Origin: Herpomyces periplanetae
Taxonomy: Eukaryota > Ascomycota > Laboulbeniomycetes > Herpomycetales > Herpomycetaceae
Direction: 5' to 3'
Assembly: GCA_009733715.1 (NCBI GenBank)
Contig: WMKJ01000039.1
Span: 1-64,000, forward strand
Length of the DNA: 64,000 nucleotides
Below, in pieces: positions 32,906-64,000 of this stretch (its first letter is position 1; the number at the start of each line of letters is the position of its first letter). The notes under the pieces were generated by a model. The model was not told where the DNA came from and did not search any database. It worked only from the letters and a program-made list of their open reading frames with translations. The position numbers and the translations under genes are program-made.

Positions 32906-33010
32906 CCAAATAGGAAATTAAAAGAAAGACTAGACGGAAAGGTGTCCAAATTAGGAAACTCTGGGGAAGACTAGGCGGAAAACCCTTCCGAAATGGGAAA
33001 TTGGCCCGAT
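32906..33010 (+). repeat. Short imperfect tandem duplication in AT-rich DNA
   Basis: Two or three imperfect copies of a roughly 40-45 base unit with the core GAAGACTAGGCGGAAA, a C-rich step, and then AAATTAGGAAA or AAATGGGAAATT. It is the most GC-rich spot of the region and lies next to a CATCACGTGGG segment. Origin unknown. Confidence 0.4.
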
Positions 33011-33125
33011 GCCGCAGAACTACGACATCACGTGGGTTCTCAATGGTCCGAGGCGGGAAAAATCGACGACGAAAATGTTGTTTGAAAGAATTTTCGAAGT
33101 CGGACGTTTGGAGAGATGTGCAATA
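32985..33125 (+). repeat. Possible degenerate dispersed repeat, copy 1
   Basis: By eye this patch resembles 53325-53460 in the same orientation. Both show a GGAAATT..GC..GA opening, then GGGAAAxATCGAxGAxGAA, then TGAAAxAATTxTCGAA, and a following GTTTG. The match is imperfect and was judged without alignment software. Confidence 0.3.
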
Positions 33126-39100: not shown

Positions 39101-41654
39101 AGTAATGATGACTGCATATTTCAATCATCTTCAGAATCTTGGAACAATCAAAGTGTAAGGGCCCGTGATTCGTCAAAAAATTGAGTAAATTTTTCACGCA
39201 TAAAAATCTTGGAATAATACTGCTCAAAATTACATGGCAAAGGAATAATAACATAGATTATGAAAAGACTTGAAGATGTGAAAGGCTGTTTAGTTGAACG
39301 TATTGGGATATCAGAAAATTAGTTAAAATCAGTTACTGTTTACGCAGTCTAAAATAGGAATACGATTTATTTCCTAATTAAATTCCAATTTTTATCATCT
39401 TCATAAGGTTGCTTGATTAGCTTGTTGATACATCGTGATGTATTTTGGCGCCCGGGTTTACTTTGAGACGAGATATTTTAGAGTTGTGGTTTTCGTGGTT
39501 ACTTGAACTATTAGTCCTGAAGTAATTATTTCGTAATTGGCAATGCAGGATTGTCTTTAGCTCGCTGTATTTACCGCAGATGATGGAACTTTGGTTAATA
39601 TTGTACACGTATATTGATGGACTTGAAAGCTGATCAATTTCTCTCAATTATGTGCAGGTGAACAAGAATTCTTATTTGGAATGCAGAGAAACTGTGCAAT
39701 CATTTGAAAAGTTTGGTAGATTTAATAGAGTGGCAAATAAGTTACTGAAAATTTATTTCTCTTTATGAGCTGAATAAAAGAATATGTACCAAGTTTGAAT
39801 TAAGACACTACATGAAATAATTAAAATAAATCTGTTAAAAAGTATTATGTTATATAGGTTGTTGTATAAGTGTTCAAACTGCACATTTTGTGGTGGAAAT
39901 CCAGCAGTCAAATTGATGGAATGGGATACAGTTTATAATGTAATAGTTTAAAATAGGCTAGAGTCGTATGTGTTTGAGAAAAAAAATCGTTAGAAATGCG
40001 TTTGGATAGATTATCCAGATTGATTTACATGACAGTAGACTTCATCTTAATGTCAAAAAGTTTAAGAATTATGAGACGTGATTTTAAAGTCGTTCAACGT
40101 AACTGAATCAAGAACCAAGTAGATTTATTAACGAACTGTAGAATTTCCCATTGTATGACATGTGTCAGGCTAGAGAACATATACTTGCCAATGTTAATTT
40201 GTCGAACATTTCAGTTCATGTGTTGTGAATTTTGTGTACATAGATTAAATTTTTTATAATCTTGGATTCTCATGATATTAGCATTCAATAAGTATTTCCC
40301 AAAACACGTTTTAATGATAATTTACTTGACCGAATTAGATGCATCTGATTTAGTCCATAATTGAGAAAGTCACTGTATACTTGAAGTCATGAAAGTTTCT
40401 AATCATAAAAAAATACTAAAATATATATTTAGTATGCCATGAAGATAAAAAATAAACCAAGTGTGATTTTAAAAGAATCAAAATCTTAAACAAGTGCAAA
40501 TTGAACAGCAACATTTACACACTAGTTATAACCAAAACTTAAAATAGGTATGCTATCGTTTGTGTTTCATGGTGTCCGTTTAGTTGGTTCTTGTGGTATG
40601 AGAGACTAAACTTTTATATAATGTGATTTCAAAACTTTTGAAGGATGGAGATGTCTAGAATAGTTGAAAAAATTGTGATTAATTGATTCTTTTGGGTAGA
40701 GTTTTACGGAGATAAAATTATGACAGCTTACTTTTTACCGTTGAACATTTTTAAACAATTCGGAGATTTAGATGTACGCTGTCTGAACTTATATGGAAAC
40801 CAAATGTCATCGTAAATTTTGCGTACATTTCAAATGTTACGAAGACAGTAGTAGAATTCGCATACGACATAATGAATTGCGAGTCAGCTATAAGGCATGC
40901 TTGGGTACAAATTTCTAAACTATTTTGAAGTACAGCGTAATTTATGACAGCTGCAGCAAATGAAATAAGTTAATACACACAGCATACGTGAAATATATTT
41001 ACTAACAAAGTAACTGTTTATATAAAAATGTGTAATGAATAGGAAATAATGTCGATGGAGTTTAACTTTTGTAACAACCTTCATTCAAGGTGGAGTAAGC
41101 ATGTTACCAAAAAAAAACGATATAAAGAAACGGTTGGACCGAGGGAGTGTATTAAATTTCTGGCTTGAAATCTTCCTACAAAAAGAATGATTTTCAAACT
41201 TAATAAATGGGAGAAACCATTTTAGTCTTCGAAAACCAAATTAAGCCTTATATTTTGAAAAAAATCCTCAAGAATTTTTTAAGTGAGATAAGCTCACTGT
41301 TCAAAATGATAGGCCAAAGTCTAAAAAGAAAATACTATCTAGTTTAAATTCAGTCTTTGACGCCCTCGGCATCAATCCAAATTAATTTTAATTCATCTTA
41401 AAGCCTAAATCTTTGAGTTATCGTTTAAAATGCCGAATAGTCGAGTGCAAACTTCAATGATTAGTTTGTAATATTCAAAATAAAAACTATTCCTATCATT
41501 CTATTTTCTTTCTAGATTCAGACTGTTCAAACTGAGCAGAAAGTAAATAATGGTTACTCTTTAAATTATTTTTATGGTATTTAGTTAAGAATTTGAGATC
41601 TCATTAAAAAACCTAATACGAGTCTTGACTTTTCATGTTCTTAGCTTTATGAGA

Positions 41655-42113
41655 TTAAACATCCACTCCTAGTTCCCTTGAATCTGTCGTGTTGTGAAAA
41701 TTAATGTGCGCAAAATCTTTCCCGATTAAACTAAACCATGCATCTTGAAACACTATATGGATGCCAACATGTTTTATCTCATCGTGTACTAAAATTGTGG
41801 ACCAATTGATCACATGGCGATACTGAATTGAATTGTCCGTAACCATATACGCTTGATATCGTTAATTATGCTACACTGTCGAATCTGATGCATTAGACTT
41901 CAATTTTACTTGGGTATTGACCTGACACAAGCGTTTACGTGTAGATTTACAGTACATAACAAATTTAAGCCATATATTCCATTCGACCCACGATTTCATG
42001 TACGTATTATGATTATGATTTCGGAAGTTTTCCAACTGTTGGCCTACCGTTAACCAGTTATCTGTACTCAATCCAAATGAAATCGTTATGTGTATTAGTT
42101 GCAGATAAAACAA
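41655..42113 (-). other. Coding-like patch, unsupported
   Basis: Two adjacent open frames on the - strand (42113-41871 and 41846-41655) use less AT-biased codons than the surroundings and encode plausible mixed sequence (for example TDNWLTVGQQLENFRN and VINWSTILVHDEIKHVGIHI). No intron of acceptable length joins them, the first lacks an ATG start, and no family is recognised. It could be a remnant of a gene or chance. Confidence 0.2.
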
Positions 42114-45100
42114 TCGAATATTGTGAATTTTGCGCTAAAATGACGTATCAACATAAAGAAAACTGTGTTTGGGGATATTGGTACTTGAGACGGACATTAA
42201 AAAATACATAATTATCAATAAGAAACCCAACTATTAGAAGCTTAATCACAAATCATCCATGAGGGATAGAATATCTAGCCTGGTTAATTTATGCGATTGT
42301 ATTATGCAAAGTTACATTTTAGTTTTTACAGAATATCAACCAAAATCGAGTATGCTTATATAGTAAAAGTTCAAATAATGCTTGAGTTGTAGTTTGAGTC
42401 GATTGAAATATCAACTGGAAGTCAATTTGCGCTCTCCAAGTAACTTATAATTTGGCGTTACAAAGGTTGCAATTGGCACATCTATTGTGAATTCATGTCG
42501 GGTATTGGAAAATTTATAAAATATTCCTGTTGTTTTCTAATCCGTATATTTTATCTTTATGATATACTGCCTTGAGCACACCAAACAGCTCAAGGAAATT
42601 GTAAATTTATATCTTCAATTTACATCTTTTGAACCACCTGCATATTTCATTGCCAATAGATACATCCTGAAAAGGTGATAGTTTTAGGCCTCATGCTTTG
42701 CCTATTACGAGATAACCTGTACATGCTCCCTTGAAAAATTCCATGTGTAACTCGTTCGCCGCAAATTTATCTTTTCTTTGCCATCTATTTTAAAATGCTC
42801 CTCAGTTTTGGTTCATCCTAACATGTAAATGGCAACTGTTTTCATATCATCCAAAAGGGACCTTTGTGTGCAACCATTATTTTCCAAACTTCATCGTATG
42901 CTACTTTTCTATCGTACCATAAAGTATGTCTATTCGAGGACATATCAAAATATAACTGATCAATACCTGGTAAATATTTGCCATAAAAAGGCAGTCTTAG
43001 AAGATGGATTTTACACAAATTCAATAGTAGAAGTTCATCAATAATAATGCATTTTAAAAATCAAGGTTCTCGATCTTCATTCTACTTAACTAGTAATTTT
43101 CTGGCAAAGATTCATTTATCGCGAATGTTGGTTATATTTTCTTTCGAATATTGTGCCAACTTAAGTCCACAATAATAACTTTATATAGTATTAGATTTTA
43201 CATGTCCAAATATTATTGTATATTTCATGCACCTTAAGCATCTCCATTTACGTACAAGATGCTTGTGAGTTTGTACCAAATTATACCAATGTCAAGACAT
43301 GAATTCTCCTACACAATAACAAATATTGGTTGCTTCAATTCTGTGTGTTTGGGGGTTTGGGCTGAACTTGACCATTTACTAACTGTACTGGCGACCGATG
43401 ATTGAAAATTCCATTATCTTTCATTTTAAACACCATATTTCAAGGATCAACATGGGTAGAAGATATTCGATTTTGATTTTTGCAACATTTTCAAAAATGA
43501 ATATACATACTTCACTACATGAATAAATATTTTCTATTTAAATTCCTACAATCTGGTTCTTATGAGGATTACCTGATTGGCTTGCCGTAAATCATCAAAA
43601 TAGGAGGAATATTTGTTAGGATAACAATGTTAATTTTGCTGATGGGATATACATTAGAGTTTTCAAATCTGCTTATCTGTCAGACCTTCATCTAGTTAAT
43701 GAAGTTTTTTTTCTCAATACTGAACGATAAATAGTACTTAATTCATCCATCTCATGACACACACAACGATAGCTGGATTTAAGATCGTTCCGGTGTTGAA
43801 GTTTCTACACAATCTCTATTTCTTTACGTTAAATTGATCAATTTTTATACACCTGAAAGATTATTATCAATTACCCCGAACCTGCAAAACGTCTCCGAAA
43901 ATTCCCGGACAATCAATGTCGTTAATTTAGACTCCTAGTGGAAGGTCGTCTTCTGCAGGTAGAGTAAAATATACAAAGTAAACTGAAAACTATTCGTTCT
44001 CGAAGGTATGTACTAAGATGAATTAAGTGAACTGGAAAAACTAAGAATGGTGTGGTAACCGTAAAATTCCACTATATGAGAAATATTTATCCACAAAAGT
44101 CCATATGTGAAAGGAACTTAAGAAACTTGACCCGAATCCATAATTGAGTGAAAGTCTAGTGATATAAAAAAGTTGAGAAATAGATGTTCTGAAGGAGTGA
44201 AATTAAGATTTTACAATAAGAGTCATCACAGTCACCAAATACTAACATTTATAGTAAAAATCAAGTATGAGCTAAAGCATTTTTCCAAAATAAACTGAAA
44301 GCATTGTTAAGGGTATAGCCACTAGTTAAGATGGAAAGCAAAAGAACATCTAAATTTATCTAAAATTTAACCTTGTTTACACACTGAACGCTAAGGTAAC
44401 ACCATCTATAAGATGTTAAAGTGAGTGATATCTATTATTTTCAACTAGTATTAGCAAGAAATAATAGTTTTAAAATCATACATTTCTTCCTGAAAACCGC
44501 CTTCTACAGCGTTTTGCGCCGTAGAAGAAGCTTAGATTACAAAAAATGTGATTTCAAAAAAGTTTATTGCTTAACCTAGCAGATTTTGGTCAGCCAGTAT
44601 TAATGTTCTTTGAAAAAATAAGTTTTTTCCGTTTTAATAGATATAAAACCACGGAATCAATTGCCATAAAAATGCCGAATGGTTTATAGGTCGGAGTTTT
44701 GTAGATACCGATGGTATCTGGTTTAATTTGAACGAATTAATTTGCTGATATAAATGGAATAAATATTTTTATGATCTTAATTTACAAGGGTCATATAATA
44801 GTCCATTTGGATGTCTTTTTGATTTTAGAAGTTCTCACGTCAAGTTGTGGAACATAAAATATACTTTGGGTCATTGTGCCACAAAAATAACATTCATATT
44901 CACGAACATTGATACAATGTTTTATTACCACAATTCGACTCATTTAAATACACATCAAGATGACCGTTGCGACTCGAAAACTTTGATGTGCGCAGTCCAG
45001 TGTTTTCTTATATATATAAAGATTTTTTTAGGTGTTAAGCTATTTGGAAGCATGTAGACTGGCATGAAGTACTTCGTTTACTTTGAAGCCTAAAAATTTC

Positions 45101-48100
45101 ACTATGTAGCTAGATAAATAGTAGGTAGTAATCAAAACTTAACGAGGAATCAAAGCGTTAACTTGTAGATGCATCACAATAGAACAATTCAAAGAGAGCG
45201 CAATACAATAATAATAACCGTTTCTAGACAATAAGATTTATGGAGGGAAAAATTTCGCGCATTATTAACCAGTTTAAGTACTGAGTTTTATAAACTCGAC
45301 AGTTACAAAATCAAGCAAAAAGCATTCAGTTACGAGAAAAAATTTTGGTAATTCTATACCTTAAAACATCAAGAATTACAAAGGCATATTGTGACATTTC
45401 AAAAGATAACTCTCTGCGTTGATTTAGAAAAACTATTTCCTCCACCCAAAGTTGAACATGATGAGATTTTCTGGCAGATATTGTAATACCACAAATTTAA
45501 GCCTCACATAAACAACTGGGAATATAAAAAGTTATTTATTAACATATACTCAAAAGAATTAACGTCTGGTTCATTGAAACATACAAAATAAACCAATTTG
45601 CATTCGTAAGTATGCATCCCGGGATAAAACGATAATTTTCTCGAGTAAGAAATTTTGTGAGATGAGAAAAAATATTGTTTAATCGACGTTGTGCAAGAAC
45701 TCAATGTGTAATTAGTATTTATAAATATTCAGGCACAACTTGCTTTGCCGCTATTAACTTCAGTTATCGTTCAGTCAACCAGACAATTCACATGGCACGA
45801 AAGCTGTTTTTTGGTTGAATATTAGTAACTGAACTATTTTCATACTATTGGTGAAGCGCTACGATGGGGTTGGTTCAAAGTATTCGATTGAGATAACGTC
45901 AATTCGAAATAAGGTTTCCCGCTGATTTTATCACTTCAGCCCTGTAATATGAATTTTTCAAGTTACATGTCAATCTCAGTGATTTGTTAGTAAAGTAGCA
46001 GGTTACACTTGACGTACATCGCCCTAGGAATTGAAATTTCCATATACGATCTTGGAAAAGATACAATTATATTTTCTAAGAATTGAATCACATGTATGAT
46101 TGTTATGTGAATGTGTTCACCTGTACCGCTTTATGTTTAAAATGTGTGTTCGCAGACTTGAACGTTTGGAGAATATTACTACATTTTTCGCAGTAACTTC
46201 CCACATACTTTTTCCAGTGCACCTTTTAAGCTTTTTAATATTGTTAAGCTCATATTTTTCTAGTAGAATACAAAATAACAATTGAAGTCTTTAAGATTTG
46301 ATTAAACTTTAAGCGACTAACTTAATTTTTGCGAATTCAGTTGTACTGGCTTTGTTGCCACCTACTGGTCGAGTAATGTGGTTGACTTGAGAGTTATTTT
46401 TGTGACCCAACAACGCCAAATTGCAGGATAGAGATAAATTGTAGACTCTTGATAAAAAGTTAAACTTTAAAACTCCCATTATTATACGAAAGGAACTATG
46501 AGAAGGTTTCTAGATATTTCACAGGCGTTTATCAAATACATTTATCCCAAATTAACATTTACCAACGAAACTGCGGAATATTCTTGGTTAATCAAATGCA
46601 CCTGAGAATGTGGTAACCACAAAATGCTAATGACCAAATTTATTGCGCCCAATACCCAGAATGTTGACCATAATATGTGTCTGAATGGGCGGAAAACTTC
46701 AGATTCATTTTATCTTGATATAGGTTGACAATATACTTGACAGCCTCCAAAATCATCTTCCGCTGCTCATTTAAAAAATTATGTTATGGTGATTGTTGTA
46801 TCTGACTAGACAATAGTATCACTACATACTTGTATATTGCTTAAATTGGAAAATATCATCCATATCAAGAATTCGATACTTTCGATGTATGTTCTGTCGA
46901 TGAACGATAAAAATGACAGACAATGTGTTTATCAAGATGAGTGGGGCATAGGTAAAACAGCGCAAAAGCACTTTAATGTTAAATTTAGGTAGACTTTAAA
47001 CCTTAATCACAGCCATATAATATTCTTCAAATCTTAAAATAGTTCTTTTAAAATTTGTTTTAAAAATATAGTCGACCGTAACCTAAACCAACTTAGATTC
47101 TATAAATAATGCTTACTTTCAGTGTCCACTTTCTCTAGAATCTCATGCGTACAATTTCAAATTCTCATTAACATCATTAGTATTTTACACTGCAACACTC
47201 ATTTCACAAAACATCAACTTCATTTGTGGTATTTTATTCACCTGATATCTTCAAGTTGTATTGCATAATAAACTATCAGACAGCAGTGGCTGTAAGAACC
47301 TGAGAATTTAAGAGATGAAAGCCGCTCTTCCTTCAATTATCAATGCACGTATGTCCTACGATGTATCAATTTTGTGTTGATAGAATTAGGTGTTTCAGTG
47401 AAATCTTCTCTACTGGTGATAAAGAATAAAATTATGTGAACTGTTACATGTTGGAAAAATGGACTAGTAAAACTTAGCAACTGACCAAGTTTATCTAAAG
47501 ATAGTTAGGGCAGGGCAGGGCGAGTTCAATGTGACAGTAGAAGTATTCGGACTAGTGGAAACTTACGTTTTACCGGACAATTGTATATCGTATACGACGA
47601 AATCCGTTCGCGCGTGTAGCACATTACAGTTCGAATAGAATGATAGTTAATTACGTAGTTATAGATTGATTGTTGAGTTGTAATCTATTGCTAAAATGTA
47701 GTATTGAACTCATTTGCAAATATTTAAATTGGAACGATATTTCGTAATAATCTCTTTTACCATTAATGTCAAAATCTATCGCATGCACACATCACCTTGT
47801 CCAAATCATGTATGTAGAAATTTCAATTGGTAAAAGTCATCGATGCCAGTCTCTTTTGCGACATTGATTCTAGAAACGTCATCGACCCACTATCAAAGAA
47901 AAAATGTCAAGATATTATTTGCGCAATTTACCTCAACACGTAGAATTATAGTTAACAATTACCTTATGAGGTAACATGAAAAATTTCCATAGCCATAACT
48001 AACGGTCAATCGAATAATCAAGGCGATTGTATCCACCAATAACACTTCGTACATCAACCGCGTACCTACTTATAAAATCCCAATTGTGACTTAATATCTT

Positions 48101-49022
48101 CTAATATGTTATCATAGGTTATACCGCATTGATTACCCAGTCCTCAGTTGGCAGTTCTACCTCAAATCTAAAATACCAAATCTACGGCAAAGATTAAAAA
48201 AATACACCCGTCTTTATGGCTATTTGGTTCGATAAGTTAAACACCCAGATACTAACTTTTCCACAACTTTTTCAAGTTGGCATAAAATACCATATTTGGG
48301 GTAGCATTATCCAGAACTACGTATCATCATGGTTACTCCGTTCAGTGTATCAAAATTTTGAAAATTTTACGCTATTTGTACTTCTTTTAGTTTGTCAATG
48401 TAACCTTATGATCATATTCCAATACCTTCAAAAGTTCACATGAGAAATTGTTTCCTTTAATATTCTCACAAATTCACTCATCCAGTATATACGAATGATT
48501 TCTAAACTTTGAATTTAATTTACTCTCAAATTCCTACTCATATTTTTGTGCCTGTCTAATCAATTTGTGGATAATGCATTCTGACTGTTACTTCAATTTA
48601 CTTGTGCGGTAATCATGGATAGGTAAGTTTAACTAGCTTCCAAGTTCGCATATGATGTCTTATCTATCTTCATACATTCCACAATTTGTAATGCTCTTAT
48701 TCCAGTTCTAACAGTGCCCAACGTAATTGTATTTTTACTTAGCCGTCAAATATTCTCCGAAACTTCTATTATAATTATTTTCAGCATAATGCCAACTGTT
48801 TATACCCAAGCAATAAAAAATCATGCCGTTAAATATATACAGGGGCTGTTATCAATTGTACATCGGTTGAAGAATTCAACAATTTCCACAAGTCATACAG
48901 CATAATTACTCAACTTGCCATCATTATGCATACAATTCGTACTTTGCGTCATTCGAGATGTTAGTTTATTCTTCGAAAAGTACCAAAGTGGGAAAAATGA
49001 ATCGTTAAATATAATTTTCACC

Positions 49023-49030
49023 TATAAATA
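49023..49030 (+). promoter_or_regulatory. TATA box of the secreted repeat-tail gene
   Basis: TATAAATA lies 114 bases upstream of the ATG at 49137 and is followed by a pyrimidine-rich leader (TCATCCTCTTCACCCTC). The paralogue at 62934 has a TATAAAG at a similar distance (104 bases), which supports a shared promoter layout. Confidence 0.5.
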
Positions 49031-49136
49031 TGAGGTTTCCACTACGTTCTCATTTGTACATTTCATCCTCTTCACCCTCAATTTCCCTTTTGAATTCTTA
49101 TATATTTTTAATAATATCAAATATAATTGATTCAAC

Positions 49137-51204
49137 ATGCGCTCCTCCACAAAATATTATACGAGCACTGCGCTTGCTATTGCGTTGTATGCAGGCCGGT
49201 ATGGTGTCAACGCTCACAATACCTTTTATCTAGCAGCCCGGACAGATGCTCCAAATTTTAACAACGTGACCTTGGTTTATTCCTTGTCTCCTGATACCTT
49301 CTGCATATTTCCTTCTAACCGTGTAAGTAATAATAACGCTTGTTGATTTGTTCCAATTGGTTTTAGGCTCCATCTTACTTACAATTCTTTTCATAATTTA
49401 GAAACCTCCGTTAAATATCCAACCAAAGAGATTTGCATATGACTCCAAGCATGAGAATGTGGTGACTCTTGGTACTCGTCAAGTAAATTTTACTTTACCC
49501 GACGTTGAGAATTACAACTTTTCTGATGAAGTGGCGGACGATGGTGTTCATTACCTCTTGAATAATAACAAGTCATTCCTTGCTTGTAGCTCCCTAAATA
49601 TGTTGGGCTTTTATCAACTTATGGATGATAACCCAAAGAACTTCCAGTATGGCCATTGTGTTCACACTAAACTTGCTATGCTCGATTATAGATCCAAAAA
49701 CGGTTCGACCACAGCTCACACTCTTAACCCAACTGATATTGAGATTCCACTTAAAGACTATACAGTAATAGTCCCCCAGACCATTGCTAATTCAAAACTT
49801 ACATTATCCGAAATAAAACCAACTGTCGATAATGACCAGACTAATTCATCTTCCCCTAAGTCACCTCACCTCACCAGTCCTAAAACTGGAGTTAAAATGG
49901 CTGTTCCAGAAATTAGTGTTTCACAAAATAATACAAAAAAATCAACTGATAAAAAGGCACATCAAACGTATACAGTGGATGGAGAGGTCCCTATTGATGA
50001 CGATTTACCTGAAATTGACTCCGAAGATAGTCCGGAGGAAAAGACGGAAGAGGAAAATTATCCCAGGTCATTGGACTCAGTTGAGAAAATTGAAGACAGT
50101 CAACCATCCGTTTTCAAAACAGAGGCAAAACCCACGAAGTTTGACCAAGAATTTTTGACAAGCCATCCAGAAATAAATGAATCCATAATCGAATTCTTCG
50201 AACGTCTGCCAGGAGCTATTGAAGCCGGGATTAAAGCAGGGACATTAGAGGTAGTTCCTCCTGGACAAAACTTTAAGGTAACCCTTCCAGTTAAAGAATA
50301 TTTGGAAAGCCTACCTGATATAATAGAATCTGGTATTAAGGATAAAGTAATTAAGGCCGCCAACTCGGAAAATACTGCTACGAGTGACAATTCTGAGAGT
50401 GCTAAGCAAGATCGGTCATCTCAAGATTCAATACAAAATAATACACAATCAAGTGATGCACGGACCTCCAGTCCAGTCGCACCTGTTGTTGATGAAAATG
50501 GAGTAAAGCATTTTTCGATTAATAAACCTTCAAAAGGGCGGAATACAGAAGTGGTAGCTCCAGTACCTGACAAAACAGCTGCTAAATTAGAACCAATCAC
50601 CAAAAAAATTGAGGATGCTGAATCTTCAAAACAGGAAAAAACATACTTAACAAGCCCAGAACCCAATTATGAAGGTTCTGCGGAACTTGATATTAGCAAA
50701 GGCATCCAGGAAGGTAAACCTTCAAGAACGAGAACAATTAAAGCAAAGACTCCAGGGCCTAATTATTCAACTGTAGATAAATCATTGATTGGCCAGGGAA
50801 TTGAGGAAGGGAAACCCGAGCCAGATCATGAACGGGCTCGTCGTCGAGCAAAGAGACAGACAGCCTCGTTAAAATTAGGTACTTCTGGAAGAATAGCCGA
50901 AAGGAAACTAGAGTTGAGCGATTCTGAGAATGATTCAAAGAAAAAAGGATCAGAAGAATCACTTGGCACCACCTATCCCAAGGGCTCCGGGGATTCAGTT
51001 TCTTCTCGTGGACGTCAAAGAATAAGTCCTCAGGTGTTGACTTCCATAGGCCAATTTAGAAAAGGCAATGGGGAAGTGAAGTCGGGGCGAAGCGACTCTC
51101 AAACTCATACTAAGATAAAGAGCCCTAGATATTCCATTACTTCCTATTCAAAAACGGATGCCAGGGAAGCGAACCAGCATCCATATTTATCCAAAACCTC
51201 TTAA
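49137..51204 (+). CDS. Secreted protein: novel Cys-pair N-terminal module plus disordered repeat tail
   Basis: Join(49137..49322, 49402..51204) gives 662 residues. The 79-base intron has a GTAAGT donor, a TTTAG acceptor and phase 0. Residues 1-26 form a signal peptide (LAIALYAG core, cut after VNA). Residues 27 to about 190 form a module that aligns ungapped for about 160 residues with the product of 62934-63581: NxFxLAA, NFS at 101-103, ACSS with C124, C148 and LAMLD at 153-157. NVT, NFT, NFS, NKS and NGS are possible N-glycan sites. The tail is acidic, Ser/Lys-rich and disordered. It holds two LPxxIExGIK repeats (about 330-343 and 366-379) shared with 56329-57063, two decayed ones (GIQEGKP about 495, GIEEGKP about 528), and a Kex2-like RRRAKR (about 541-546). 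I do not recognise the family. An effector or surface role is inference. Confidence 0.75.
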
Positions 51205-54200
51205 GTCCATTGCCGATGCCATCAAAATCTCTGCAATCTATGTAGTCCAGTCATCAGGAAAACAAGTTAGTGGAGATGGTGAATCAAGACAAAATATCAG
51301 AATTATCTGATAGACGTGAATGTTAATTCTGAAGTATTTTTTATGAACATTATTGAAAAACATATCGATGTAACTGTTTCATTTGTATCTTTCACACATT
51401 GGGCAATTGACGTTTTTTAAGATTTTGATGACGATTAGTTATTTTTAGCAAAGAAAACATATTAACCGGTATTTATTCAAAATTTTCCGTCTTGAGATAT
51501 AATCTTATAATGAATGGTATATTCAACATGTAGTTGATTGTTTAAAAACCAATACTGCTACTAGATATTGTAAAAATATTCCAAGTTTGATCATAATTTA
51601 ACTTGTAAATAATGATGAGGATATTTACCTCACATTAAATTTAAAATTTTACACTTGAAACCTGCTAACAATGTATTACCATTTAGCAGAGGTGCAGACT
51701 ACATGGAATTCACGAAAATTTTCCTTGTAAAATCGTTCAGGTATTTTGTCATGAAGATACCTGAAGAGAATTAGCATAATTTAGAAAACATTACTCTGAG
51801 CAAATTGGTCAATGTAGTTACAGCTAACAAGAACAGTAACAAGTCTTGACAAAAAATATAAAAATAATAATTTAGTATGCTTAAAAATATGTTTGTGAGT
51901 ACAATTGTGTAAATTCATGGTATAGTAAAAATCACATATTTTCAAATTTTGAATTCACGGGAAATTTATTATATCAAGCCAGAATATTTAAGAATGATAC
52001 CATAGCTTTTTCAAATTAGAATCATCCCGCAGCATGAAATTCGAATAGTTTTGCATACAAGTATCTTTAAATATTTCTACAAAGATTTGATTTGTTTATC
52101 GCTTTATGAAAGTAAAATTTAATGTCAAGAGTAATGTGATAATCAAATAATATTATTGGGCTGAAGTATCCTAGGGGCTGTATATCATATAAGCCTAAGC
52201 GGAGAAAACAATCTGAGGTGATTTAAATATGCACCAATTTTTTCGAATCTTAAAATCTATTGAGCTCGAAAAATATTTCACAAAACTAAATTTAGTTATT
52301 TCATTATAGTAGAAGCATTCGAGGCACATTTATTGGAACGCATTTTGAAAACGATTAGCGCTTCCAACCTTGAATGCTATCAAGGTTGTTAGTGAAGCAA
52401 TTTAGAACATAAAAATAGCGTTTTCCCAGTAGTAGAATACATTCTAATCTCAATATTTAAGCTACCAGACTCTAATTATAATTTTGTCTGTTATGTTGAC
52501 GAGAACCTATCTGTTGCATTAACACATGAAATGGATTTCTTGGATTCTGAAAACGTTAAAATCATATTAAATAAACTGAAATGATCATTGTGGATATACC
52601 AATGAATTGAGGTGCTATATATGGGAATTTTTACAGTTATCTTTGTACGACATGTAAGAATCGAAAAAATATAAAACACCACAATACAAACTCAAAATAT
52701 TGTCCATAGAAATAAACACAAATGTTGGTATAGCATATTAATATTTATGACCTGGATTCAAGAATTCGACTTAATCCTGCCGGTTCGTTGAAGTAAACAG
52801 GGCCAAAAACTATTCTAGAGCCACGTATAATTTTATTGAAATAATATTGACGATAATTCCCTAAAATTATTAAAATTCGAATTAAAAATTATCAAAAGCG
52901 CAATTAGGGTTGAAGTAACTAGTATGCACAAAATAATTGGATGCAAAACTGGGTATAAAATAGCGTACTCTTAGAAAATTAAAGCATATGTTCTGTTGTT
53001 GCTCACTCATTTGCCAAACATTATCATGAAAATTGTGGAAAAGTTTATATATAACATGTATAAGACCAAATATAAGAAAAAGATGACTTTGAAAACGATA
53101 CTTGTCAATATTAAGTTTGGAGAGCATATCCGGCTTGAATTGAAGATTAGGTGAAGTCAGGATAAAGTATTGAATGATTTATATACAAGAATAATTTTAA
53201 GAAAGCATCAGATACTAATTAGATGAAGGAGCGCAAAATAATTTGAAGAAATGTCTCGGACAAATCATGCAACGAATTCCAACGAAACAGAATTTTCTGT
53301 CAAAAAATTTTGAAAATATTTCCTAAATAGGAAATTCGCGCTGAGACGGGACAAATGAATTGTGCTGTTGGCTCATCTAGTTGAGCGACACTAGGGAAAT
53401 CGATGAGGAATTCGTCTGAAAAAATTCGAATTAACAAGTTTGATTGGAAGTTGGTTGAAAAGCAAATATCAGTGTGGGCAATTGGGAATCAAGCATAGGC
53501 AAATCGGCCAGTGTAATAAGATATAACTACGGAACAAACCTCGTTATTGGATTTGAAGAATATCTAGAGTAATGAATGTTCATATATTTTATTGCTAATG
53601 AACTCTCGAACCCAATTCTTAACTCTACAACTCGAATTGGCCTTTTTGGGACATATAAACGTGTTGAACATGTCATATTTTGAAGTGCGCTCTCTGGGAG
53701 TTAATTTATTTTTGAGGTAACTGTGACCTATTCTCACTGCTTTTCATTTGAAAAGCAGAGCAAAAGAAGTAAAAGCACGTGCTCACTTCAACTCTAATAC
53801 CTCGCATGAAAACTAAACTAACTTCGAAAAATGAGGTTAAGAATCAATACTCATTAATCCCGGGTCTACATTTTGTTTATTGCATTTGTTTTAATTCGGG
53901 TTAATTGTAATTGCAAACGCTTGTAGTTTGAACAGATAAATTCCGTTCTCCTTGGTTTCTGAAATAAGTTTTCACATTCCTCGACCAAGAAACATGATAT
54001 TGTGTTTATCTCATTTTCAAAATCTCTATATTTCGATAAGTAATTAATGGTTAATTTTTACTGCAATAATTGTACTATATTTTCTTTATTTTAAATTATT
54101 GCTCTATACTTTAGTAACCGTATTAATTCGACTGAAACTCTTGGAAATCATTTTCTACGTGTTTATGCGTCTGGATAATGGTTGATTTTGTAACGATCAT

Positions 54201-56328
54201 TCGAATGGCAAATCTATGTATAGAAGGCTAGATTCCCTTAAACTCTCTCTCATTTCCAACATTTCTATCAAACTAGATTTTATTTTAATAAACTGAACTT
54301 CTCTTGTTGAAGGAAAGGATATAAGAGTATATTCTACATGAAAAATAATTACACAATTCTAACTGTTTGAAATACATAAAATGAGATCATTAATGTAATG
54401 ATGGCAGGACTGCGATAAATTTAAGGTCAAATGTCAATAAAAAGGTATTATAAACATTGTAAACCAGATTAGATTAAGCTAATTTTACTATTTTAACATG
54501 TCTTAACTTTTATACATCTTAAATGATATTTATCAAGTTAAATATTATATCAAAAAGAGAGTAAACTGCAAGTCATATGGTTAGATGACATGATTATATA
54601 TATACGAGATCGCAAAGGATGTTCATTATCACAATCCTATGGATTTTGAAAATTTACGTTTACCTTTGAATAACCTATGTAATAATATATCTCTTCTGGA
54701 ATGATTATGTAGCCTGAGCTTGTTAAATCTACAGACTTCGAGATTTTTTTCCATCCAAAATTTAATGATGTTATAATATGATTGGCCCTATCGCCAGATA
54801 TGGCTCGCACCATAACTATTTTCTCCGATTGAATATCAGCACATTGCTCTTTCGATCTTAATATTCAGGAAATTTATACTTGGTAATAATATCAGTTATC
54901 TGGTGCTTGATAACTCATATGAGTATTTTAGTGAAAAGCTAATTGTATAGTTTGGAGCTCATTAAAACTAATATGTTGAAACAGTAAAAAAGACGTTCGT
55001 CCAAGTTGAACAATTATATTAGATTCTAACCAATGTAGAGACTTGAAAATAAATGAAAAGTTAAGTGAATTTTCGATAATTCAAGCTGAATTCTCAGTTA
55101 TCAAAATATTTTCTTGTGTAATCTCAAGATCCTAACTCTACAGAAACATTATAGAACACATCCCTGACATTTGTTCCACAGGCAAGTAGTTATTCAGGGC
55201 TTCCAAGTAATCAACTGGTACCCTGATGTGTTGAAAAAATTTATTTTGGTTTGGTAGAAGTCCTTTAACACGTCGATATCTTCTGTAAACTCATTGGTCA
55301 TGTTGTTCATTGAAACGAAAAGAATGTTATTAAGATAATTATCTTGTGTTTCGATTCAGTATATCCAATTTGGTCATTCTAAGTCGTTGTAAATCTCTTA
55401 CTTGAAATCTTTTAACTTAACCAAATACGCCTAATGTATCTCCAAGTTAAACGAAGATATATCATATTTCCTATTATTTTAATGTACAAGTAAACCTTGT
55501 TTGTAATAATGTAATCCCTCACTAGGTTTGTATCTCATTTACTTATTATGGAAAATTTTGATATTCTTGATATTCCTCCAAACATACTTTTAAAATTGGA
55601 CACGCTTTGCCAAATGTGTGATCAATAACTCATGTTATAATTATCATCAGACTTTCACTACCAATGTACCGCTTAATTCATGTGTTTATGGAACATATAT
55701 TACCATCATTAAACAACTATTCGGGAAAATCTGTATATGTTTTTAAACAAGTTTTTGGAGACGACGTCTGTTTTGATTCTCTTTTTTAGCCAAAATTTTT
55801 TTTTACAAATTTAATTTTCAAATTACATACCAAAATTTACCTCTTTTAAACTGTTAATGTTGATTTTACCCAAATACTTATTTCAATGGAAATTATATTC
55901 ATGTGTCAAAGATGTATTGTTGAATAGAAAAATTGACCTTAACCAATGTCTACCGTCTGGAGAATCATCATACAGATATATGTATTCATAAATGTCAGAA
56001 TTATACCAATTTCATATCAACCCATACATAACATATGAAAATATGAACAGAAACATGTTTCGGTATTGAAGTTTAATTGATAAGTGAGCGAATTGAGAAT
56101 TTATGAAGAATAAGATCAGCAAAAACCTTAGACAGAATTTTGATGCAAATGATGTCACGGCCGATGACAAATCTGGTAAAATTCTGATTGAAATCTTAAT
56201 TACTCTTTGAAAACCACTGTTGTATTTAATGTGCATACAACCGAATTTCTAAACCTACCAAAAATATCATAATTCACAAACAGTACAACCAGCATATAAT
56301 ATTGGAAAACGAAAAGAAATACAACGAG
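51205..56328. other. AT-rich intergenic region
   Basis: About 5.1 kb of AT-rich DNA with no recognised gene. A patch at 53260-53470 is GC-richer and may be a decayed repeat. A 35-codon frame at 56103-56210 (MKNKISKNLRQNFDANDVTA and on) is less AT-rich than its flanks and lies just upstream of the repeat-protein gene. It could be a first exon of that gene, but I found no donor-acceptor pair that keeps the frame. Confidence 0.45.
53325..53460 (+). repeat. Possible degenerate dispersed repeat, copy 2
   Basis: Counterpart of the patch at 32985-33125: AGGGAAATCGATGAGGAATT followed by TCTGAAAAAATTCGAATT and AAGTTTGA. It is about 20 kb from the first copy, in the same orientation. Judged by eye only. 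Confidence 0.3.
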
Positions 56329-57063
56329 ATGGATTCAGTACAAAAGTCAAATGACAGTCTCCCACCGGCTATCGAAGCTGGTATAAAAGACGGCAAGTTA
56401 GATAAAGCCACTTGGGAAAATCATGCGGAACTTGCAAAATCAATGCAAAAATTTGTTGAAAGCTTACCGGAGGCTATTGAAGCAGGCATCAAAGCTGGCA
56501 AGCTAAAAGTGGCTACCTGGGGAAGCAAACTCGAAGATACGGACTCGATGAAGAAGTTTATTGATAGCCTACCAGAAGTCATCGAGGCTGGAATCAAAGG
56601 GGGAATTTTGAAAGTGACCGGTATGGGAGGAAAATCGGGAGAGATGAGTTGCACCAAGGATCCTGAGGCCACTGCGAAAGATGCGATAAATGCAGGCATC
56701 AAAACAGGAGAGCTACCAAAAGATATTTTACAAACCAACCCGAACCTACTAGAGTCGATGAAAACTTTTATTTCAGGACTTCCTAATGCTGTAGAAGCTG
56801 CTTTAAAAGCCGGAACGTTCAAAGTTTCGCCTGGTGAAAGTGATAAAGAACCGTGCAATTCAAATAATCATCTTGATGATACTGTCAGTAAAGTGATCAA
56901 TGCGGGCATTGCATCTGGAAAGTTGCCTGAAGACACCTGGAAAAATAACACTAACCTAGTTGAAACGCTTAAGAAATTTATTGAAGGTCTTCCCAAAGCT
57001 GTTGAAGCTGGTTTAAAGGCTGGAACGTTTAAACCAGTAACTAATGAGGGTAAATCAAATTAA
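56329..57063 (+). CDS. Helical tandem-repeat protein sharing its repeat with the gene at 49137
   Basis: The first ATG at 56329 gives 244 residues ending at a TAA; the frame is open upstream to a TAA at about 56225. The protein is almost entirely repeats: about seven cores of the form LPxAIEAGIKAGKL, each followed by a variable linker and a helix such as SMKKFIDS. Units alternate between an LPxAIEAGIKAG type and an AINAGIxxGxLPxD type. The last four cores form two ~70-residue supra-units (NAGIKTGELP to KAGTFKVS, and NAGIASGKLP to KAGTFKPV). Two cysteines only. No signal peptide is visible, unlike the gene at 49137. A CACAAACAG acceptor-like site at about 56286 suggests that a signal-peptide exon may exist upstream. 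Codon use is much less AT-rich than the flanks, so selection on the protein is likely. No known family recognised. Confidence 0.7.
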   Translation: MDSVQKSNDSLPPAIEAGIKDGKLDKATWENHAELAKSMQKFVESLPEAIEAGIKAGKLKVATWGSKLEDTDSMKKFIDSLPEVIEAGIKGGILKVTGMGGKSGEMSCTKDPEATAKDAINAGIKTGELPKDILQTNPNLLESMKTFISGLPNAVEAALKAGTFKVSPGESDKEPCNSNNHLDDTVSKVINAGIASGKLPEDTWKNNTNLVETLKKFIEGLPKAVEAGLKAGTFKPVTNEGKSN

Positions 57064-60000
57064 AGAGTTGGTCCAACCGAAGCTTGAGAATAGTTGTCAA
57101 CCTTTAAGTAATGCAGAACATGCATCAGCTAGTATTAAACTTCATAATTCTAGCTATCGCCTAACATATAGAGGGCTCGGTTTAATGACTACAATACATT
57201 TACATGAATACAGTGCAACTAAATCTGTCGTATAATAATGTTTAGTACTTTTGTATTTAGTTAAATATCGAAGACTTTGATAAATCAAAGAGTATAAATT
57301 TATAGTATATTAAATCGTGATCTACCGGATAAGTTGAATATATTTCGCATTTCACCAACACGAATATTGCGGTAGATTTAAGAAACTTGAAAGGGTATTG
57401 AGATTCAAGTGGTCAAGTATTTACACACTGTATAAAGCTAGGCTATGATCTGCTTTCTGGTAGAGCGCCAGGAAATATCGGACTGAAATTAATACATCCT
57501 AGAGAATACTGTACTAACACTGTAATAAAAATCGCTTGTCAAATTTTGTAAATTATTATACACAAGATAACTGGTTAAGCTAAAAATTACACTCTTGTAC
57601 AAGTATACTTAATATCAAGAGACTAAAGAAACTGAGGGAGTTGACAAAGACAATCCAAACGATAATTATGCCATTAAAACATAATCTGGTTAATTAGTTG
57701 AGGAAAAACGAAATACAAATTCTATAGCTATGCCAGTTTCATACAAATGCATTCGAATAATAACTTTGCACGTTAAATTGGATGTTGGTAGAAGATAAAA
57801 AGAATGAAACAAAGATATTTGTTTGCCTTTTCAGTCTCTATGTGTTCTCTAAACAGGCTAGACAAATAAGAAAATTGAATGACCTTAAAATAAAAATAGT
57901 AGTGCCAAATTGTAAGTTTGGGTATGTTCCGAGTAATGTGTACACAGGAGTAGATAACTGATTATGATGCTTGAGTCTCATTGCATTCCAAAAATCGAAT
58001 ATTCCACTGTAATATATAGAGAATGTTGAATAAGTTTACCAAAATTATTCATTTACTCCGTCAAGTATGGCTACACGTTTTATTATTGCAATTTCGAGTT
58101 GTTCTAACTACTTTTTTTTAAATAATAGTATACCCTTCATAACTTTCGTAGCGAATATTAACCATTAGAGTATATACCTTATCCAACCATTAAACATAGG
58201 AAAAAGTTGCGCTAACAGCTAGGTAACTTTTTCGGGCTTCTAAGTCAATGTAATTCAAGAAATTTATCGAGACAATAGCTGTTAAGAGCAATCAGACGAA
58301 TTTACGTTTAGACCGAAAGAAGTATCCTTTTCGAACGAACTTTAAGTTCAATGTGTTGAAATGTAGAATATGTAAATCATGAAAATTTTACAATACCAGA
58401 AATTCTTTAACAGAAAAATATTTAGTTTATAATGTTTCATACCTAAATGTAATGAAATCCGGTATAAAACTCATAGGAATAATAATCAAACAAGTAAACG
58501 ATTGAGTGATATATTCAAATATAGGTATACTGTAATTTGTACTATCAGACATCGTGAAGTTAATTTAAGGTCCATGCTGCACTTAACATTAGTTGTGGAA
58601 ATTTGACCGTCACTATAAGAGTATAAGAGGCATACAATCAAAAAACAACTGAAAAATAAAGCTAAAATATCTCTAAACATTAATTAGAGCTCCAGCGAGA
58701 AATTCTGTTGCAGTGTATTATGTTGCTTTGTATAAATGTTTACAATTACCAATTTTTCACACAAGAAATAGCAAGAATTGAAATTACATGGTTAACAAAT
58801 ATTTCTATTGAGAAGTTTTAAAAATATTCCAAATTTGCGCGGGTTGGAAGCACTCATATCCTAAATTCCATAAAAAATAGTCATTTTTAAGCTCTAATTT
58901 AGGAGTTAATATACAACAGTAGTCTGTTGATTCAAGGTAAAACTATCAAAAGCTCAATAAGTATACAATGATATATATAAGATTAAATATCGTGTTTCTA
59001 TGAGCAAGAAATGAATTTTGGGTGACCAAATAATGTAGACAGTGAGTTAAGGGGACGGGGCATGGTTTCAATCATATAGGATATTAGAGTTTGTGATTGC
59101 AGCGGAAAAGTTAACTGACATTTTGTGCCCAAATGCTAAATTTTTGCAGAAGAAATAGGATGATACCGCAAAACTATTGATACAATGAGGTTACCTGATG
59201 AGTTGTACCCAATTACAAATATGGCAGATTAAACCTATGAATTAGTGGATTCAGAGTGAAGCTCTGTGAAGATTTCAGCGAACAGCTATACGTGAAGAAT
59301 GTTAGCATGGACGGAAAGGTTAGTGAGGCGCGAATGTCAAAACTTATGGTATATTGGAATAACCTAGTTCCATGATAAGTTACGCAAAACTAAAGTATAA
59401 TGATAAACTTAATATGAAAGAACTATCAACCCGGAATCAGTTTTCAAACACTATTTAATTATGAAGTAAAATTAACAAATGACGAAAGACGAGAAACATT
59501 TCCCTAACAAGAATTCTGATAATAACGATGCGAACATTTAATAGGCACGAAGAAACTCCAAAAAGGATTTAGTAGGCATTCTGTAATAAACCCATAAGAA
59601 TGAAATACTACATTTGAAATTGATGTAGATAATTAATTTAGTATTGAATGATATACTTTTACAACTACCAACTTAGTGTGCATACACAGTCTCAAAAGTT
59701 TAAGCCAAACACGGACAAGTGAGTTTACTGACAAACTGTGAAAATGATTGTAGTTGAAAAGTAAGATATTAAATATGTAAGTCTTAATTTGTGTCATGGA
59801 ACATGAAACCAAGCAGCCTAAAGAGAAAATAAGTTCGAAATGCAAAATCGTTTTTTTAGTATCTTAAAACCAAAGTAGGCATATTAAAAAAAGCATAAAA
59901 TCGAATTTAAATTTACTGGCAAGGAAAGTCCAGAACCGCACCCCACGATATTTTAATTGGAATTATACGAATTATACTGAATTTAATATCGGTAACGTAG

Positions 60001-62829
60001 CCAAAACTAGCTGGTTGGTCTTGAAAATTTTCAGTGTTTCATCCACCATATTCTTTGTAGGATAGTTAAACAAAATTCTTTAAGTAACTTTTCCAATTTC
60101 AAGTAATCTACTATTCATATAAAAATTCTCCCAGAATACGGTAGCCCAGTCTGCTCAAATTTAACTTGTTTCACTTGTAAATTTATTCGGGTGAGCATTT
60201 TCCTGTAATCTTCACTGTACAAACTAAATTTTGGAAATTTATCTTATCTAAATCAACTTTACATCAACATGGCGATTTTTTATGAGTAGTTCCCCCATTT
60301 AATAAAGTTAAAACGATTATTGGTACACAATTGGTGCTGAATACAAAATTTCCATATATACACAAAGAAATTCATGGGCTCAATCATTTAGAGAAGTTAT
60401 ACTGATAGAAGTACAAAAGTCATTAATGTCCAAAAACCTCAAACACGGTATATCACATTATAACTTGCAAGTAATAACTATAATTAACATTTGCATCGAC
60501 CAGAATTTTAGTATAATCAAGTCCCCTTGGGAGAGTCGACTATTTGAGCAGATGGCATTAAAGTGTACTCGAAAAAAGATATTTAACTAACCACGTTTAC
60601 AAAAATTTCGCGCTTGGTCAAGGAGTGGCATAGCCATAAGATATTCGAATAGTTAACCTTGAATTATTTTGGGTCTCAAATACACCTATGTTTTCCCATC
60701 AATTGTCATAAATTTTGGGTATGGCTTTTATAAACGTATTGTATTCCTCAATTGGAACACATTGCATGTTAAGTGCATTTCAAGATTAGTACCATTTCAG
60801 TTAACTGTAAGATCACACCACAGTTTATTATCTCTTATTTGTCTTTGTATTCCCTCTATTTTACTTAAGTCTCATTTAGAACAAGTTGCCAATACTAAAA
60901 GTACATCTAACGTCAAAGCCATGTATGTGCTAAATCCATTTTCTTTCGGACTTTAAAAAATCAGATTTCTGACATCCATTTATGTCATTATGATTCGTAG
61001 TTTGCTCATTTTTTGCCTTAAACTCAAGTATACAATGCTAACTTTCTTTTCCCTTGGTCGAAATGTAGTTAAAGTTGTTGAGTCTTTGCAGCGTATGCTA
61101 TCATGCTGCATAATATCGCTTTTAGCTAGACACGAATCTAAACTTAACCCTGTGACTTCTTACAAGTTTTTGTATATTGAGATGTTAAATCCTTTGACAT
61201 AATATGCTACTGTACAGAGAAACAATCATTATGTTAGAAATTTTTCAGCGAATAGTTTGATATCGTTGCCGAATTTATGTTAAAATCGACTAGTCTGGTC
61301 CAAATGTGATCTTAGCAGAAGGAATTTGTATGCTTAATTAACGGATATTTCCAATGAGTCCAATATATCTCTAGAATAGCTGACATTTATATTGTAACCT
61401 AACATGAGATAAGTTGAACTTTTCTGATTCATGGAAAAATCTCTCAACTATCAATCTTCAGTGCTTGAGACTATTGTGTCAACAATTAACAAATGCTATA
61501 GGGATCTTTTTCGTATGTTGGCATGAGTATACCACAAATATAGAGATGAACTCGAATCAGTCAAGTTGTTCCAATTCGCTTAACAATAAAACAGTTAAAT
61601 GAATCCAAATTAACATCACTCTAGAAAAATCCGTCCAAAACGCATTTATACTCAAAAAAAATTCATGTTTTTATTTCTACCAAGACTTAATGCTACGAAA
61701 TAGACAATTACAATCTTATGATGTATCGGGAATCCTCCAAAATTTATGAAATTGTTCAGCCATAAAGGCCGGTGATACATTCCATAATTGATTAATGGTA
61801 TAATTGAGTTAGTTTACTGATATACACAGATATTTTTTCCCGAACTGCTTAAAATTTTAATGTTCTTTCATCCCAACATATTGGCACCACTGTAACTTAA
61901 CATGTGGAAATTCGTTTCATGGCCAAAGTTGATGCAATTCACCACTAACTTTGTTCTCTTGCTCTATGCAATCGGGAGTTTAAACTCAATTCGGAATTTG
62001 ATTCAAAAATCAGAATGAAGAATACGCATATTCTAGATTCTCGGTGTTCAATTACCGTGATATTCAATCCAATATAATAAAAAGTCTGATTTTTCTAACT
62101 TGTCATCTTGATACATAAATCTCCTACGTTTTTTCTCTAAGGGACGTTAGCTATATCTTCCCTTTTTGTAAAGTAGTAATCATTCATTGTGCCAACTTCA
62201 AACCCCGAATCTGTTGTCATCTTCGTGATACTCTTTGCTCTTTTCTCTTTGCGAAACTATAACTTAAATATTCTATAGTGCATCAATTGATTTAAATTTA
62301 CTCTAATCTTATAAATTCTTTCCTTAAGTTTAGCTGCATTTATCTATATGGCCAACAGCACTCACATGAGAAATCTAGTACATATTGATTTTGTATTTAC
62401 ATTTAGTTATCTTACCTTTATTATCAATTTTCAAATGCGTCGAGGTTCCATCGCAATAGTATTTATTGTGCAAAATCCAGCTCATAGCTATCATCATTAT
62501 GATCGTGTTACCAAATAACACTCTCAAAAGTGCCTAATACTTAAACATAGAGACTGGTTGGCAGAAAAAATATAATCAATCTTTTGCTTTTATTTTTCGT
62601 CAATGCGTCTAGTTAACTCCATTCTTTTTTCATGCTTAAGTTCTAGAATCTTTATTTTTCCATGGACGAAAGCCTATGATTAACTCTTGTTAAGTTATGC
62701 TGTAGCATTACCAAAATTGAACATCCCCAAAGTATATCATGTATACTTCAGAATGTTAAAGTAAACCTGTCTCCGGCATAAAGTCGATTCTGATTGAAAG
62801 GCGATAATTTTCAGACTTACCGATTCTTG
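57064..62829. other. AT-rich intergenic region
   Basis: About 5.8 kb of AT-rich DNA. Open frames of 60-95 codons (for example 60669-60956 and 60990-61202) have no signal peptide, domain or repeat that I can recognise and their composition matches the background. Nothing else is visible. Confidence 0.5.
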
Positions 62830-62836
62830 TATAAAG
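62830..62836 (+). promoter_or_regulatory. TATA box of the short secreted paralogue
   Basis: TATAAAG (in CTTGTATAAAGGGTGG) lies 104 bases upstream of the ATG at 62934, followed by a T/C-rich leader, matching the layout upstream of 49137. Confidence 0.45.
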
Positions 62837-62933
62837 GGTGGATCTTCATTATTTTGTCTGCGTTTTAATTTTCTAAATCTATCCCCATAATTCGTAACGT
62901 ATTTTGGTTACTAAAAAGAATATCTAATATAAT

Positions 62934-63581
62934 ATGTATACCTCTTCAGTAAATGTCTTGAAATCTGTGTTAGCTATAGCGCTTTTAATTGGCCAGCGTT
63001 GTGTTTATGCCAATAATAAGTTTGTACTAGCAGCTGTAGTGGATGATGTTATGTTCGGTGAAATCGAATTTGTTCATCGGAACTATGTAACCGAATTTGG
63101 AGTTTCTCCTAGTGTTTTTGTACGTTACTTTGGAGCACTTTTCTATAAAGTTTTATTCGTAGATGCTTACATGGAATGATTGTTCTAGGTAATGGATTAT
63201 CATGTGAATCCAGCAATATTTGTGATGGGTGACGACCCAAACGTTATTGTTACTGACGAGGAGATTCCGAGGAAATTTCACCTTGAATCTGGTGGAAAAA
63301 GCAACTTTAGCGTATTTACTTCTGAAGATGGTGTAAAATACCTCAGAAATTACAATGAGCCATATATTGCCTGTGCTAGTCCTCAAAATATGAGCTTCTA
63401 TGAGTTTTGGAAATGGGAAGATGATTTGGAAAGTGCTGATAGATGCCACACTACTGAGTTGGCTATGCTTGATGTTTATGAAAATGATAAACCAGTGCCC
63501 AAAGAAATTTCAGATTCGGGTACTGAAATCAAATTTGACTCATATTCAGTTGTGTGCCCCAAGGCTCTATGCTACCTCTAG
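62934..63581 (+). CDS. Small secreted Cys protein, paralogue of the N-terminal module of 49137-51204
   Basis: Join(62934..63119, 63189..63581) gives 192 residues. Exon 1 is 186 bases, exactly as in the gene at 49137, and the 69-base intron (GTACGT donor, TTCTAG acceptor) is also phase 0 after codon 62. Residues 1-26 form a signal peptide (VLAIALLIG core, cut near YA-NN). The mature part aligns with the long paralogue: NKFVLAA, NFS at 101-103, DGVxYL, ACAS with C124, SFYEF, C148, LAMLD at 153-157, and DSYSVVCPK near the end. It stops where the paralogue's disordered tail begins, and has two further Cys (184, 189). Size, signal peptide and Cys content fit the loose definition of a small secreted effector-like protein; activity is unknown. 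It is about 11.7 kb downstream of its paralogue. Confidence 0.75.
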
Positions 63582-64000
63582 CTTGATATATAATGCCCAA
63601 TATTTAAAACTTGCAAAAACTCTTGTTTGACTCCTTCAGTTAAGTTGAGCTAAATGTTAATCTGCTATTGGTGCTCTTAGTTTTTATTGATGAATATATA
63701 GAGAGTAGAAATGTGAATATCAGTATAAAATAAGCGTCAAAGCTTTTACTGTAGCTTCAAAGAGTATTCACCACAGAAATAACTGATTTAATAACTTGGC
63801 CTCACTTTCACATAACATGAAAAAATGTGAAGTTTACTTTGATGCGAGGCCATCAAAACTTTGGGTTGTTATTCATATAAAGTTGTAGCCGAAATTCACG
63901 CATATGACTAGAAATATAATTTAGTGCAAAATATGGTTCTCAAGTTTATATACCGTTCATTTGTGATTGTAATTCTCGATTAAGCTACTTTGATGGTTCA
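63582..64000. other. 3' flank, AT-rich, no gene seen
   Basis: AT-rich sequence after the last gene. No open frame or repeat of interest up to the window edge. Confidence 0.5.

Follow-up and report, generated by a model that had tools for sequence, protein, structure and literature searches.

Two genes lying 11.7 kb apart in an AT-rich stretch of the Herpomyces periplanetae genome raise the question of which proteins they encode and what those proteins may do. The window analysed here is the stretch of 64,000 nt from positions 1 to 64,000 of contig WMKJ01000039.1 (assembly GCA_009733715.1; the contig has 105,865 bases). A first reading made from the letters alone (the sequence-only reading) had proposed an unrecognised pair of paralogous secreted proteins with a fixed first exon and cysteine layout. 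The analysis places the two genes, A and B, in an array with a repeat-only relative, C, and a decayed copy, D, in the order A-C-B-D, on one strand and within 19 kb. We lean somewhat towards reading this array as a tandem cluster, old and in part decayed, of lineage-specific secreted proteins that would be effector-like at a changing interface. The features of A and B are as follows.

49023..49028, + strand: TATAAA, 114 nt 5' of the gene A ATG; consensus match, putative promoter element.
49137..49322, + strand: gene A exon 1, 186 nt; by hydropathy, predicted signal peptide (about residues 1-26, ending V-N-A) and start of the module.
49323..49401, + strand: gene A intron, predicted, 79 nt, phase 0 after codon 62, GT-AG, donor GTAAGT.
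49402..51204, + strand: gene A exon 2; remainder of the module, ending at about residue 190, followed by a repeat-bearing Ser/Lys/Glu-rich tail of 470 residues.
62830..62835, + strand: TATAAA, 104 nt 5' of the gene B ATG; consensus match, putative promoter element.
62934..63119, + strand: gene B exon 1, 186 nt; predicted signal peptide and start of the module.
63120..63188, + strand: gene B intron, predicted, 69 nt, phase 0 after codon 62, GT-AG, donor GTACGT.
63189..63581, + strand: gene B exon 2; remainder of the module.

The 186-base first exon, the predicted phase-0 intron after codon 62 and the distance of 11.7 kb (from the end of A at 51204 to the start of B at 62934) were all borne out by the sequence. 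In-frame acceptors lie at 49401 in A and 63188 in B; A has three more in-frame AGs (49428, 49449 and 49455), and 49401 was chosen because it makes the alignment with B gap-free. The translated proteins have 662 residues for A and 192 for B, the latter without the tail. Alignment of residues 1-194 of A with B gave 29% identity and was gap-free through residue 157. The ungapped module of about 160 residues that had been described stands for residues 1-157, of which the mature part comprises 131 residues (27-157, 39 of them identical); at residues 158-190 only 1 of 33 was identical without a gap and a few more with one gap. The module alignment scored 128 under BLOSUM62; 20,000 shuffles of the residues averaged -125.5 (sd 24.1) and reached -9 at most. 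B exon 2, used as a genome-search query, found A with an expectation value (E) of 7.9e-9. Nucleotide identity was 88/186 in exon 1 and 124/285 in the first 285 nt of exon 2, and the duplication is therefore old. Both the score, above all shuffles, and the low nucleotide identity uphold the paralogy by old duplication that had been claimed. We conclude from the alignments that A and B are paralogous, with a shared predicted exon/intron plan and a homologous module.

By codon position, 57, 67 and 46 of 131 positions were identical, the third being lowest. This is the pattern expected if selection acts on the protein, and it agrees with the constraint at protein level that the sequence-only reading had put forward. 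Since the frames of A, B and C are still open and conservation is seen at protein level despite an identity of only 29% between A and B, selection would have persisted long after the duplication.

The invariant positions include C124, C148, N101-F-S103 and L153-A-M-L-D157, exactly where they had been reported. N101-F-S103 is an N-glycosylation sequon common to both proteins; A has 11 sequons (including those at 43, 91, 101 and 118) and B has two (101 and 129). There are three cysteines in A (56, 124 and 148) and five in B (23, within the signal peptide, 124, 148, 185 and 190), with C124 and C148 the only ones in common. The rigid cysteine layout that had been proposed thus holds for A and B, but it consists of two cysteines, and D lacks C124. 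Signal peptides were called from hydropathy and the V-x-A cleavage motif, not by a signal-peptide program. On the Kyte-Doolittle scale the hydrophobic core reaches 1.96 in A and 3.09 in B, and both predicted peptides end V-x-A ahead of residue 27, consistent with the earlier prediction.

The family goes beyond the two genes that had been described. A third copy, D, lies about 4 kb past B, beyond the window, with the exon layout of A and B.

Contig 67559-67744, + strand: D exon 1.
Contig 67815-68102, + strand: D exon 2.

A profile built from A and B found D exon 2 on the contig with 17.5 bits (E 2e-4), a score reached by 0 of 300 simulated 44.7-kb blocks (first-order Markov; best 10.8). D exon 1 was not significant with this profile alone (2.8 bits, E 6.5). 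When A alone or B alone was scanned over both strands of the contig (211,516 and 211,162 positions), D ranked third after A and B for each exon. Exon-1 scores at D were 49 with A (next 25) and 28 with B (next 27, a narrow margin), and exon-2 scores were 50 with A (next 9) and 39 with B (next -9). Averaged over A and B on the + strand of the AT-rich block described below, D scored 38.5 against 5.5 for exon 1 and 46 against -27 for exon 2. The spacing between matching residues of exons 1 and 2 is 256 nt in D, 252 in B and 262 in A, and TATAAA lies 104 nt ahead of the expected start of D, as in B (114 in A). D is identical to A at 14/62 residues of exon 1 and 20/96 of exon 2, and to B at 12/62 and 19/96. 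The start codon is absent from its expected place and stops are present in both exons, which indicates that D is a decayed gene.

Gene C, the other addition to the pair, is related to the tail of A.

56302..57063, + strand: gene C, 253-codon open frame with seven 35-residue repeats, the last incomplete; start not located.
50203..50412, + strand: two 35-residue repeats in the tail of A, common to gene C, with a weaker stretch ahead of them.
50626..50817, + strand: 32-residue repeat in the tail of A (about residues 471-534; 96-nt offsets).

C matched the tail of A with E 1e-17 and 35% identity, and the C-type unit occurs at least twice in A. The units of C keep an exact 105-nt register, and across nine units, seven from C and two from A, agreement by codon position was 0.52, 0.59 and 0.33. 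None of the seven short hydrophobic frames examined at 53500-56330 for a signal-peptide exon of C had a consensus donor site; with no upstream start exon found, C could be either a gene fragment or a gene whose first exon lies far off.

All four members lie in one compositional block, and the AT-rich, gene-poor setting that had been claimed was confirmed.

26001..64000, running on to about contig 70700, no strand: AT-rich gene-poor block, from the GC profile.

Over 26.0-70.7 kb (44.7 kb) GC was 0.323, against 0.422 in the flanks, and of the 1-kb windows, 41 of 44 inside the block and none of 61 in the flanks fell below GC 0.36. A signature of repeat-induced point mutation (RIP) was not seen in the block; judged by the usual index thresholds, TpA/ApT was 0.76-0.98 and the second index at least 1.05 in every 2-kb window to 70 kb. 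Elsewhere in the genome, 33 stretches were picked by hand blind to content (one of only 360 bases). Sampled genome GC was 0.42 and three of the 33 stretches fell under GC 0.36; one of these (C70:86001-95000) was AT-rich and gene-empty throughout and two were not extended blocks. A search of the three low-GC regions with the A and B profile found no family member. The longest stop-to-stop frame in C70:86001-95000 is 98 residues, and the stretch is possibly centromere-like. Since it is AT-rich and gene-empty, AT-rich blocks are not unique to the A-C-B-D cluster.

When the 13.79-Mb assembly was searched with exons 1 and 2 of B, exon 2 of A, gene C and a piece of D, no copies beyond those described here came up. 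The Cpn60/TCP1 family gave 16 matches on 9 contigs, and the assembly is therefore unlikely to be a small fragment of the genome. No Pfam or NCBIfam family reached its cut-off for A, B or C, as the sequence-only reading had expected in finding no known domain. Rows below the curated Pfam cut-offs were rejected for A (DUF4124, Baculo_E56 and CBM27) and for C (Linker_histone and TetR tails), as were three NCBIfam rows for C below cut-off. Among PDB sequences, searched with B and with the A and B profile, nothing was significant for B (top row E 0.1) and the profile had 0 matches; A's tail and C were left out of this search. A set of 5.8 billion proteins (including nr and UniRef), queried with A and B but not with C alone, held nothing at E <= 10 for B (124 candidates) or A (7996 scored).

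Of 8000 candidates scored for the neighbouring phosphodiesterase/pyrophosphatase, used as a control, 7771 reached E <= 0.001. The 120 matches listed for this neighbour were only 50-58% identical, and the named ones were spread across Pezizomycotina classes. A tree of the query and 34 of those 120 matches, with no outgroup and rooted at the midpoint, gave the neighbour an end branch of 3.62, in a place flagged as unsure, that lies outside Dothideomycetes, Sordariomycetes, Leotiomycetes and Eurotiomycetes. As the neighbour gene has no near relative among the listed matches, a family confined to relatives of this fungus would be missed. The family may still be called unrecognised in that no relative was found, but its orphan status is only weakly tested by these searches, the organism being distant from the sequenced proteomes found (50-58% for the neighbour).

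Structure prediction was applied to contiguous pieces only. When B exon 2 was modelled by AlphaFold from an alignment whose one other row was A exon 2, the model's predicted local distance difference test (pLDDT) score was 43, too poor to use; Foldseek comparison of this model with PDB gave 409 matches at E <= 10 and 0 at E <= 0.001. The single-sequence model of gene C was all helix and also too poor to use (pLDDT 41).

If the array is the effector-like cluster that we lean towards, A and B would be what survives of a family of secreted glycoproteins that spread by tandem duplication and of which D has decayed. The sequences themselves show an exchange of parts, A having both module and repeats, B only the module and C only the repeats, and they show the loss of D. 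The module may be a beta-rich domain kept together by a disulphide between C124 and C148 and carrying an N-glycan at N101, and the repeats of A may form a flexible or helical binding tail. Export led by the signal peptide, together with the lack of a hydrophobic C-terminus, would release the proteins from the cell. That copies have duplicated and decayed in the AT-rich block suggests action at a changing interface, with a host, partner or competitor, and the proteins would most likely be effectors in the sense of the Taphrina candidates discussed below. Such an effector role is plausible by precedent. The likeliest reading is that the proteins work where the fungus meets another organism; we give it about an even chance.

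Several points weigh against this reading. D has Arg in place of C124, although C148 is kept. D was missing from the hits of the genome searches with A and B, as were A and B from those of the D piece, and copies elsewhere as diverged as D would therefore escape detection. Clusters in Taphrina have 2-55 genes (PMC7036362), whereas here only two genes with an intact module were found. The stretch C70:86001-95000 (GC 0.23-0.34 in 500-base steps) is AT-rich and gene-empty and carries no family member. The term 'beta-rich' is a hint from one poor model (pLDDT 43), and the secretion of A and B is predicted from hydropathy and the V-x-A motif. A role in the cell wall or in mating would fit the sequences of A and B equally.

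A wall role is the main rival to an interface function. In it, A and B would be cell-wall or spore-surface proteins, very diverged ones of the PIR1-like or PhiA kind, serving the fungus's own wall; we consider it unlikely. The order C-x(n)-FY-x(n)-C in A and B resembles the C-x-(F/V)Y-x-C order of the PIR1-like C-terminal domain (PF22799) of secreted fungal proteins, one protein with this domain was found in the genome (C110:147442-147666), and hhalign of the exon-2 alignment lined up exactly the C/FY/C motif with it. However, hhalign gave E 0.61 for exon 2 and 0.38 for the whole module, the latter over a different stretch, with probabilities <1%; PF22799 matched neither A nor B at E 10, and neither the hidden Markov model search nor the profile comparison was significant. 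The resemblance to PhiA is unconfirmed. We judge it similarly improbable that the block is simply relaxed gene-poor (e.g. pericentromeric) DNA where A and B, secreted orphans of an ordinary sort, duplicated by chance and have no interface role. The existence of C70:86001-95000, the decay of D and the fact that B lost or never had a tail would all fit such DNA, but the frames of A, B and C have stayed open, with conservation at protein level despite the 29% identity of A and B.

It is possible, though we hold it only tentatively, that the locus represents a new lineage-restricted family in which a disulphide module and a 35-residue helical repeat are shuffled among neighbours of one AT-rich cluster (A with both, B and D with the module, C with the repeats) as a source of new extracellular proteins in a sparsely sampled early ascomycete. 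An error in the gene models, by which A's tail and C would be non-coding or A's tail a separate gene, seems very improbable: the models were predicted from sequence and no start exon could be found for C, but A exon 2 is a single open frame of 600 codons in DNA of GC 0.35-0.36, and the units of C recur at exactly 35 codons, with identity low at third positions.

Outside the array, genes recognised by Pfam as RAD24-like, TLC domain and GT34 flank the block, and the phosphodiesterase/pyrophosphatase gene follows it. A candidate transposon at 32650-33200 was rejected, being single-copy in the genome. A 36-nt minisatellite of 12.8 copies (23121-23579) lies inside a long Ser/Pro-rich open frame (22328-25378) with a hydrophobic C-terminus, which by eye resembles a glycosylphosphatidylinositol-anchored (GPI) protein. 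Adjoining stretches of the region 18001-24000 have opposite GC skew (+0.38 at 18-20 kb and -0.54 at 22-24 kb), probably from low-complexity coding sequence. Telomere-type repeats were scarce, occurring at 6 places; the reversed pattern occurred at 1.

The locus probably adds another example of genes for secreted proteins that duplicate and decay within an AT-rich isochore-like block, in this instance lacking a RIP signature, and it comes from a fungus with no near relative seen among the neighbour gene's listed matches in the protein set searched. With two intact members, one repeat-only and one decayed, the cluster offers a graded series for studying the birth and loss of orphan secreted genes. 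Should the folds of the module and the repeat prove to be new, both would be clean targets for structure work.

Among known systems, the RALPH effectors of powdery mildews are RNase-like and carry a Y/F/WxC motif near the mature N-terminus. A and B are like them in being small predicted secreted proteins with few cysteines and a common intron position. In the translations, however, the motif is absent from residues 27-62 of A and B, and Pfam gave no RNase match for either. Unlike those mildews, this fungus has a neighbour gene whose listed matches are not nearest Leotiomycetes (50-58% identity, several Pezizomycotina classes).

The likeness to the Taphrina candidate secreted effector proteins (CSEPs) is closer in genomic terms. 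According to PMC7036362, those effectors form clusters of 2-55 genes that arose by tandem duplication in AT-rich isochore-like regions, and within a tribe conserved cysteines and short motifs are almost the sole similarity among members. Other criteria for superfamilies I and II are the presence of one or more of MEME motifs 1-7, up-regulation in the plant and suppression of cell death. Like superfamilies I and II described there, the genes studied here combine a predicted signal peptide and conserved cysteines (C124 and C148 in A and B) with little other similarity and a modular make-up, and they form a tandem cluster of related genes in an AT-rich region (A-C-B-D, 19 kb, GC 0.323 against 0.422) of a 13-14 Mb genome. 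They differ in genome GC (0.42 here, 47.3-49.8% in Table 1 of PMC7036362), in the finding of only two intact module genes, and in that A and B had no sequence relative at E <= 10 in the large protein set, whose Taphrina CSEP content was unchecked. With no such match seen, A and B are not assigned here to either superfamily. By this comparison, A, B and D are a new small family of predicted secreted proteins, and their clustering in an AT-rich block is already known from Taphrina effectors; on genomic grounds, the A-C-B-D cluster is, by analogy, of the same kind as the Taphrina effector clusters.

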